DNA from: Patescibacteria group bacterium
Lineage (GTDB): Bacteria; Patescibacteriota; Minisyncoccia; UBA6257; GWB1-50-10
Reading direction: 5' to 3'
Length of the DNA: 38,185 nt
Assembly (NCBI GenBank): GCA_030017555.1
Contig: JASEIC010000006.1
Location: 1 to 38,185 of the forward strand
Positions within the stretch are counted from its first letter, which is position 1. The number at the start of each line of letters is the position of its first letter. The position numbers and the translations under genes are program-made. Below, in pieces: positions 3,765 to 26,705 of the stretch. The notes under the pieces are model-generated. The model was not told the origin of the DNA. It was given only the letters and a program-made list of their open reading frames with translations, and ran no database searches.

Positions 3765-3777
3765 GAAAACTTTTTGC

Positions 3778-3956
3778 GTCCCCACGAGGAATCGAACCTC
3801 AATCTTTACCTTACCTGCCCGCCGTATACCTGTACCCTCGGTAGGAATCGAACCTACATCTAGGGATTAGAAGTCCCTCGTTCTATCCATTGAACTACGA
3901 GGGCATACTTTGGCAGACGGGGAAGGGTGTTACTCTATCCGTTGAGCTATGGGGAC
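3778..3956 (-). tRNA. Split tRNA: 5' half (acceptor plus D-arm, 3931-3956) and 3' half (T-arm plus acceptor, 3778-3801) flanking a nested tRNA-Arg
   Basis: On the minus strand GTCCCCA (5') pairs perfectly with TGGGGAC (3'); D-arm GCTC-AACGGATA-GAGT; T-arm TGAGG-TTCGATT-CCTCG. The anticodon arm is not contiguous and its identity is undetermined. Confidence 0.6.
3833..3904 (-). tRNA. tRNA-Arg (anticodon TCT)
   Basis: Minus strand GCCCTCG TA GTTC..GAAC, AGGGA-CTTCTAA-TCCCT, GTAGG-TTCGATT-CCTAC, CGAGGGT; complete cloverleaf. Confidence 0.92.
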
Positions 3957-4047
3957 AACGACAAAAGTTTAAAACTAATCTGAATAGAAGACAAGAGTTA
4001 AAAATTTAGTTTAATTTTATAAGCTGAATTTGAAAAATATTATTATC

Positions 4048-4593
4048 TTAAGACCCAACAAAAACTACGGCTGAAATAACTGTTGTCCAAAAACCGTCTT
4101 TGTGCCCCTCAGCTGATTGAGTAGTATTAGTAGTTCTTACAATTTTTCCGCTCATTTTAAAAAGCTGTTCGCGTTCGTCCCAAGCTTGTTCGGCATTAAA
4201 TTCAATACCCAAAATTGAAGCAAGCATTGATGCCGCCAAATCTTCCGCGTATTCGCCGGCTTTATCACCGGTTTTACCAAAACTGTGATGTTCAGAAATA
4301 TAACCGTGAGCATTTGGATCAACCGGAACAGCGAGCCCCACCGAAGAAGCAATCAAGCGATTCGGTTCATTAGTAGAATTGCGAGCCATAACGCAATAAA
4401 CAATTTCGCCCGGCCGGAGCAGAGCCAATCCTTCTTCTTTGGAAACTCGTTTACAATTCGGCGGATAAATACTTGAAACCGAAACTAAATTAAAAGACGC
4501 AATGCCGGCATCGCGAAGCGCCATTTCAAAAGAAGTAAGCTGTTCTTTATGAACGCCAACGCCTTTGGTTAAAAAAACTTTTTGCGGGACCAT
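4048..4593 (-). CDS. pdaD: Pyruvoyl-dependent arginine decarboxylase
   Basis: Contains the family's self-cleavage region ...[14 protein letters not shown]..., plus [13 protein letters not shown] and the C-terminal ...[12 protein letters not shown]. Confidence 0.9.
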
Positions 4594-26394: not shown

Positions 26395-26705
26395 GGGGAC
26401 GCACGAATCGACAGGGAAAACTCTTTAAAAATTGCAAGTCGAGACGACTTTCTCGTAAATCCAGTCAAAAAACAAACAACTGCCAATAAAAACGCAGTCC
26501 CGGCGCTTGCGTTCGCGTAAGTGAAGGCATCAGCCCTTGATACCTACTGGAGGATCACTGGTGTAATACCGTAGGCTCGCTTTGGTGATTGATTCGTAAA
26601 CTAAAGCTAAATATTAGAATCAATTTGTTTTCGAAAGAAAGCTAAACTTGTAGATTGTTTTCAAAGATTTCCTTGGAAGAGGGTTCAATCCCTCCGTCTC
26701 CACCA
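26395..26705 (+). ncRNA. ssrA: tmRNA
   Basis: 5' GGGGACGCACGAATCGACAGGG and 3' GGGTTCAATCCCTCCGTCTCCACCA form the tRNA-like domain; internal reading frame GCC AAT AAA AAC GCA GTC CCG GCG CTT GCG TTC GCG TAA; adjacent to smpB. Confidence 0.95.

Follow-up and report, generated by a model that had tools for sequence, protein, structure and literature searches.

How can a bacterium live with a tRNA gene that is split in two by another, complete tRNA gene? Few genes are as conserved as those for transfer RNA, and a genome of 0.7 Mb should not tolerate insertions into tRNA genes that it has in single copy. Such an arrangement lies on the minus strand of contig JASEIC010000006.1 of a Patescibacteria group bacterium, of which positions 1 to 38,185 (38,185 nt; the window) were analyzed.

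The original prediction, made from the letters of this DNA, described a complete tRNA-Arg(TCT) enclosed by the halves of a second tRNA, and this anatomy is borne out (Table 1). Both outer halves are present with the 7-bp acceptor GTCCCCA/TGGGGAC, and so are the paired flanks CTGCC/GGCAG, GTAT/ATAC and CCTT/AAGG. On the minus strand, the insert consists of CCCGTCTGCC, AAA, GTAT, the inner tRNA, CAGGT (its last T at 3828), ATAC and GGCGGGCAGG. Excision of exactly these 108 nt restores the empty site, a 72-nt tRNA of sequence GTCCCCATAGCTCAACGGATAGAGTAACACCCTTC^TAAGGTAAAGATTGAGGTTCGATTCCTCGTGGGGACG. Since ARAGORN reads the joined halves as tRNA-Arg(TCT), the identity of the outer tRNA, on which the prediction took no side, is settled as Arg(TCT). 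The joining proposed at that time, with the loop CTTCCAA, is superseded: removal of 3921-3814 gives ACACC-CTTC^TAA-GGTAA, a 7-nt loop with anticodon TCT, and places the insertion point between anticodon bases 35 and 36. The joined tRNA has a fully paired acceptor stem (7/7) and intact D and T stems, with 3/5 pairs (two mismatches) in the anticodon stem. For the whole 180-nt strand, a single long hairpin of -67.3 kcal/mol is predicted (z = -3.3). Its tip is the inner cloverleaf, on a stem where the anticodon arm would be, as had been proposed, and the arms of the insert bring both outer ends together.

Table 1. Features of the nested tRNA-Arg(TCT) locus, in window coordinates
Feature	Position	Strand	Evidence
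Upstream region (TAGTTTTAAACTTTT..TCGTT), presumed promoter of the whole nest	3957..4047	-	visual alignment: common to the un-nested locus of G001
Outer (resident) tRNA-Arg(TCT), 5' half, acceptor to anticodon base 35 (GTCCCCA...CTTC)	3922..3956	-	match of the joined outer tRNA to un-nested genes of relatives
Inserted element, 108 nt, hairpin-ended, with inner tRNA, no target-site duplication	3814..3921	-	removal restores the 72-nt tRNA exactly; same ends in 76 distinct elements
Element left arm CCCGTCTGCC	3912..3921	-	pairs with 3823-3814; C.A mismatch at pair 3, T.G at pair 7
GTAT, inner stem strand adjoining the inner tRNA	3905..3908	-	pairs with 3827-3824; equivalent short stem in other elements
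Inner complete tRNA-Arg(TCT), the only one found in the genome	3833..3904	-	Rfam tRNA, 74.5 bits
ATAC, inner stem strand	3824..3827	-	pairs with 3908-3905
Element right arm GGCGGGCAGG	3814..3823	-	pairs with the left arm
Outer tRNA-Arg(TCT), 3' half, anticodon base 36 to discriminator (TAAGG...TGGGGACG)	3777..3813	-	reading of the joined outer tRNA

The genome is an assembly of 39 contigs, and the nest might be a chimera, as the original prediction had itself cautioned, or a tandem misassembly. This has practically no probability left, as dozens of genomes show the same architecture with exact junctions, among them named public MAGs that come from different projects. With a covariance model and DNA searches, the arrangement was located at the same insertion point in G065, G084 (Jorgensenbacteria RIFCSPLOWO2_12_FULL_42_11 in public records), G088 (Parcubacteria group bacterium CG1_02_44_31) and the Paceibacterota MAG STB_91. 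With a left-junction pattern, the list grew by G005, G312, G321, G366, G373, G397, G409, G422, G429 and G501, and the nest in G025 was recognized by reading its locus. Other tRNAs are involved as well: Gly(TCC) is both the inner and the outer tRNA in G005, and so is Pro(TGG) in G397, where the element lies in the opposite orientation to the tRNA. A two-ended pattern that is blind to the tRNA matched in 36 of 384 genomes of the class and in 18 of 287 genomes of the phylum (16 of 264 outside the class), against a single match in total for a backward control pattern. Since this pattern demands near-exact arms, around a loop of 85-115 nt, the element counts are lower bounds for loops of that size. 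Pattern matches and the loci already in hand amount to 76 distinct elements from CPR/Patescibacteria-like genomes, mostly MAGs; 50 of them contain a complete tRNA, with 20 anticodons represented.

Nested tRNAs are easily missed in standard annotation, because both ARAGORN and the Rfam tRNA model report the inner tRNA alone at the window locus. A covariance model (R1) built from four nested loci and run on 244 genomes ranked these training loci far above the rest, and G005 was an 87-bit match indistinguishable from ordinary tRNAs. The plain-pattern search was therefore the more useful one.

The inner and outer tRNAs are matched. When the flanks of the 50 tRNA-bearing elements were joined, ARAGORN called a tRNA across the joint, together with its anticodon, in 18; in 18/18 this was the anticodon of the inner tRNA. 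The matched pairs include Gly(TCC), Gly(CCC), Pro(TGG), Pro(GGG), Gln(TTG), Cys(GCA), Thr(TGT), Thr(CGT), Val(CAC) and Val(GAC). Under a more permissive criterion (the loop plus at least two stem pairs), 39/50 joined flanks show the anticodon loop of the inner tRNA; 1000 permutations of the anticodons among elements averaged 6.0 and never exceeded 13. The flanks resemble halves of the inner tRNA in 40/50 elements by an automatic test, versus 3/156 control flanks, and tRNA remnants were seen by eye around the ten elements that failed it. None of the 50 tRNA-bearing elements was seen anywhere but in a tRNA gene.

Which of the two copies was there first? Alignment of orthologous loci from relatives, a check put forward with the original prediction, shows a single un-nested tRNA-Arg(TCT) at the syntenic locus of the same-genus genome G001. 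Synteny is marked by a pyruvoyl arginine decarboxylase gene (PvlArgDC, 87% protein identity), tRNA-Pro(TGG) and a hypothetical gene (83%), and the region upstream of the tRNA is visibly similar in a visual alignment of the window with G001. The joined outer tRNA is closest to the un-nested tRNA-Arg(TCT) genes of G018 (88%), G067 (86%) and G006 (85%), two of the three in the same family. The inner tRNA is closest to the TCT tRNAs of other families (G136, 93%; G229, 92%), among loci gathered in part by their similarity to it. Synteny and these closest relatives together indicate that the outer copy is the resident gene and the inner copy the likely newcomer. Given the 85-88% match to relatives' genes and the recurrence in dozens of genomes, the nested architecture is, at the level of sequence, far beyond chance.

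Two other origins were considered and rejected: i) the inner copy is not a fresh duplicate of the resident tRNA, because inner and outer copies are only 59-88% identical across the elements; and ii) a single ancient insertion inherited by descent does not fit very similar cassettes in different outer alleles, nor the un-nested state of most relatives.

The inner copy is also the one intact tRNA-Arg(TCT) of its genome; no second was found in the 39 contigs, among 47 Rfam tRNA matches. A TCT pattern returned one uninterrupted gene each in the un-nested G001, G002, G006, G018 and G067, and one gene each, the inner copy, in the nested G065, G084 and G088; it missed G025 and returned none in G021. 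These single-copy counts apply to Arg(TCT), the one anticodon checked among the 20 that are nested. Elongator tRNA-Met, tRNA-Ile(CAT) and tRNA-Leu(TAA) were not recognized among the 47 matches; they may be interrupted beyond detection by the tools or lie on missing sequence.

The outer copies range from pristine to wrecked. The joined outers of G409 (Arg), G312 (Arg) and G397 (Pro) are pristine, and that of G005 (Gly) is near-intact with one T-stem mismatch. Damage is seen in the window, with its two anticodon-stem mismatches, and in G088 and G429, with palindromes in the T loop. The outer remnant in G025 has a D-loop palindrome and has lost its 3' half, and in G065, G084, G321 and G501 the 3' half is unrecognizable. 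The inner copies are intact by construction of the element set. Takeover by the inner tRNA, with the outer no longer constrained and able to degenerate, would be expected to produce such a series; a general need for spliced outer tRNAs would not. Replacement seems to have happened more than once in G501, where a third tRNA fragment is apparently present, and in G025, where one 5' fragment follows another.

The original prediction had offered two options, a tRNA pseudogene split by a tRNA insertion and an intron-like insertion carrying a tRNA. The first is much the better supported: outers are often damaged or missing, while every inner in the set is intact; no TCT copy other than the inner turned up in the nested genomes checked; and the insertion points, in the anticodon loop, D arm or T loop, vary between tRNAs. 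Under the second, both tRNAs would be made, the hairpin with its inner tRNA being excised like an intron and the outer halves ligated, for example by RtcB. The perfect or near-perfect joined outers of G409, G312, G397 and G005, an RtcB RNA ligase gene in the window's own genome (E 2e-165) and the predicted fold, which brings the outer ends together, all fit this scheme. It is nevertheless quite unlikely, because the outers of G025, G065, G084, G088, G321, G366, G429 and G501 are broken, truncated or carry further palindromes, and the two mismatches in the window outer point the same way. The outer copies, which in a tRNA intron would be preserved as functional tRNA, are thus intact in some genomes and broken or lost in many. 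Insertion into the D arm and T loop also speaks against splicing; we know of no tRNA splicing system that works there. A group I intron was rejected, as the Rfam scan of the window at the gathering threshold reported tRNAs and tmRNA only, with no group I or other intron family.

The insert itself is of the REP/MITE-like hairpin kind, to judge from its conserved inverted ends, its copies in unrelated contexts and the lack of a target duplication, the last following from the exactness of the joined outers. A conserved C.A mismatch interrupts the pairing of the arms at pair 3, and pair 7 is T.G. These arms also surround short loops in 47 palindromes from 15/59 genomes (0 in the control), and a tRNA-less sequence of ~70 nt in 26 elements, mostly in ordinary DNA. 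A weak site preference (S|Y, with A/C next) is common to tRNA-bearing and tRNA-less elements, the tRNA sites not being independent of one another. A strict TTC target rule, drawn from the first Arg, Gly and Pro cases, fails on Cys, Thr and Val and on the tRNA-less elements.

No transposase or integrase linked to the element was found. Y1_Tnp (RAYT-like) genes occur in 25/59 genomes, that of the window included, and in 8/15 genomes with related short palindromes versus 17/44 without, i.e., with no association. A RAYT or IS200/IS605 transposase is therefore not claimed as the mover. A viral origin was also rejected: the 5' pattern matched a single unrelated sequence (five contigs) in IMG/VR, with no tRNA cassette.

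In G409 and G366, the outer alleles differ although their cassettes are very similar, which favors a cassette moving as a unit, and the element may well be mobile. The finding of no un-nested tRNA cassette among the 50 hints at homology-directed or highly site-specific insertion and goes against free transposition. Transposition might be dispensed with altogether if incoming DNA, already nested, recombined within the conserved tRNA halves, the nest spreading as gene conversion at the native locus. Gene conversion would explain both why tRNA cassettes are never seen outside a gene for the same tRNA and why similar cassettes occur in different outer alleles. It leaves without explanation, however, the first insertions at many positions in ~20 isoacceptors, and the same ends and similar site preference of tRNA-less elements in ordinary DNA, and is considered unlikely.

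The explanation that is probably correct, as far as it can be read from these genomes, is that a hairpin-ended tRNA cassette splits the resident gene of the same tRNA, uses its promoter and replaces it. An element of ~110 nt, its ends being REP/MITE-like hairpins and its cargo a complete tRNA gene that apparently lacks a promoter, would insert precisely and without target duplication into the resident gene, in the window between bases 35 and 36 of the anticodon. The composite would be transcribed from the resident promoter, and the inner tRNA would fold on its hairpin and be cut out by RNase P and the 3' processing enzymes. It would then replace the resident tRNA, the outer halves being discarded and, with time, decaying. 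Two filters would operate: i) in an essential single-copy tRNA gene, an insert can be survived only if it brings the same tRNA; and ii) a promoterless cassette is expressed only inside a transcribed gene. Both favor the same-isoacceptor nesting that is observed.

Alternatively, selection could act on the nest itself, if the outer halves and arms served as a scaffold in the processing or regulation of the inner tRNA, or if they worked as functional tRNA fragments. The stable composite fold and the recurrence are consistent with a scaffold. It is very improbable, as the outer halves are lost in several genomes where the inner tRNA is still intact, and relatives use un-nested genes.

How does a replacement cassette compare with known systems? 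REP/MITE-like palindromes (REP-RAYT, IS200/IS605-derived PATEs, Rickettsia palindromic elements) are likewise short hairpin-ended repeats with conserved mismatches and no target duplication, present in multiple copies in ordinary DNA and sometimes inside RNA genes. Here, however, the loop is a complete tRNA gene, the target is a gene for the same tRNA, and there is neither a linked transposase found nor an association with Y1_Tnp. Integrative elements of tRNA genes (prophages, ICEs, islands) also insert into tRNA genes without depriving the cell of a working tRNA, but they carry an integrase, and what they rebuild through att homology is the 3' part alone. The ~110-nt element supplies a full separate tRNA that would replace the resident, and the 108-nt insert of the window is too short to encode an integrase. 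Intron-containing and split tRNA genes (group I, archaeal BHB, Nanoarchaeum split tRNAs) resemble the nests in that their interruption, often located in the anticodon loop, has complementary sequences on either side; the nests differ in having no group I core match, no conserved site, insertions in the D arm and T loop, and outers that are frequently pseudogenized. In Alphaproteobacteria, a tRNA-Sec gene is reported to lie within selB (PMC8124441), again one gene inside another, but the host there is protein-coding and not a tRNA gene of the same isoacceptor.

Reported tRNA gene types are continuous, intron-containing, split and permuted, and a nested type is not mentioned (PMC5733544). A literature search that reached few subscription journals or preprints found no report of a tRNA nested in a tRNA. 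The hairpin element is of a known general kind, while its tRNA cargo and its self-rescuing, isoacceptor-matched target are apparently new. A cassette that breaks a gene and supplies the replacement explains how insertions in single-copy tRNA genes are survived. It would provide a concrete and apparently undescribed route for replacing essential RNA genes, with the "Russian doll" loci as a record of past swaps. A bolder proposal, somewhat less likely than not, is that self-rescuing mobile elements home into tRNA genes throughout the phylum, each carrying the isoacceptor that it destroys, so that foreign versions take the place of essential tRNA genes time and again; in its extreme version, outers would also be matured in some lineages by hairpin excision and RtcB ligation. 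The nested loci are also a natural experiment on the ability of bacteria to mature a tRNA that contains an insert as large as a tRNA.

In G002 (C5; L237, around 3850-4300) and G025 (C31; L235), successive tRNA fragments surround one intact tRNA-Arg(TCT), a 5' piece with a D-loop palindrome lying upstream and, in G002, also a 3' T-arm piece downstream, much as repeated rounds of replacement would leave them. In G067 (C9:28100-28700; L076/L236), a tRNA-Arg(GCG) is nested in a heavily interrupted second tRNA-Arg, the anticodon of which is not readable. The arms of this nest are different (TCCCGCACTAAAA...TTTTTAGTGCGGGG), with further palindromes in the outer D and T regions, and it is possibly an independent kind of nest. 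A tRNA-Asn-like sequence in G000 (C22:43797-43896; L074) has a disrupted 3' half, scores 29 bits and is not recognized by ARAGORN. A REP-like palindrome (CCCGCCTGC...GCGGGCAGG) lies in the D loop of a tRNA-Thr-like sequence in G021 (C33:22893-23021; L217). Inverted T-arm fragments with palindromes, common in these genomes, occur just downstream of intact tRNA-Arg genes (L034, L037, L038, L040), which suggests other tRNA-derived repeats. The tRNA-less elements of G397, G504 and G498 (L280, L302-L305, L282, L283) are 105-108 nt long, with ends in common and highly variable middles. Their covarying inner stems (GCCAATAG/CTATTGGC, GCCGATAA/TTATCGGC) make them look like a structure-conserved DNA or RNA family. 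The tmRNA of the window lies at 26395-26705 and encodes the tag ANKNAVPALAFA.
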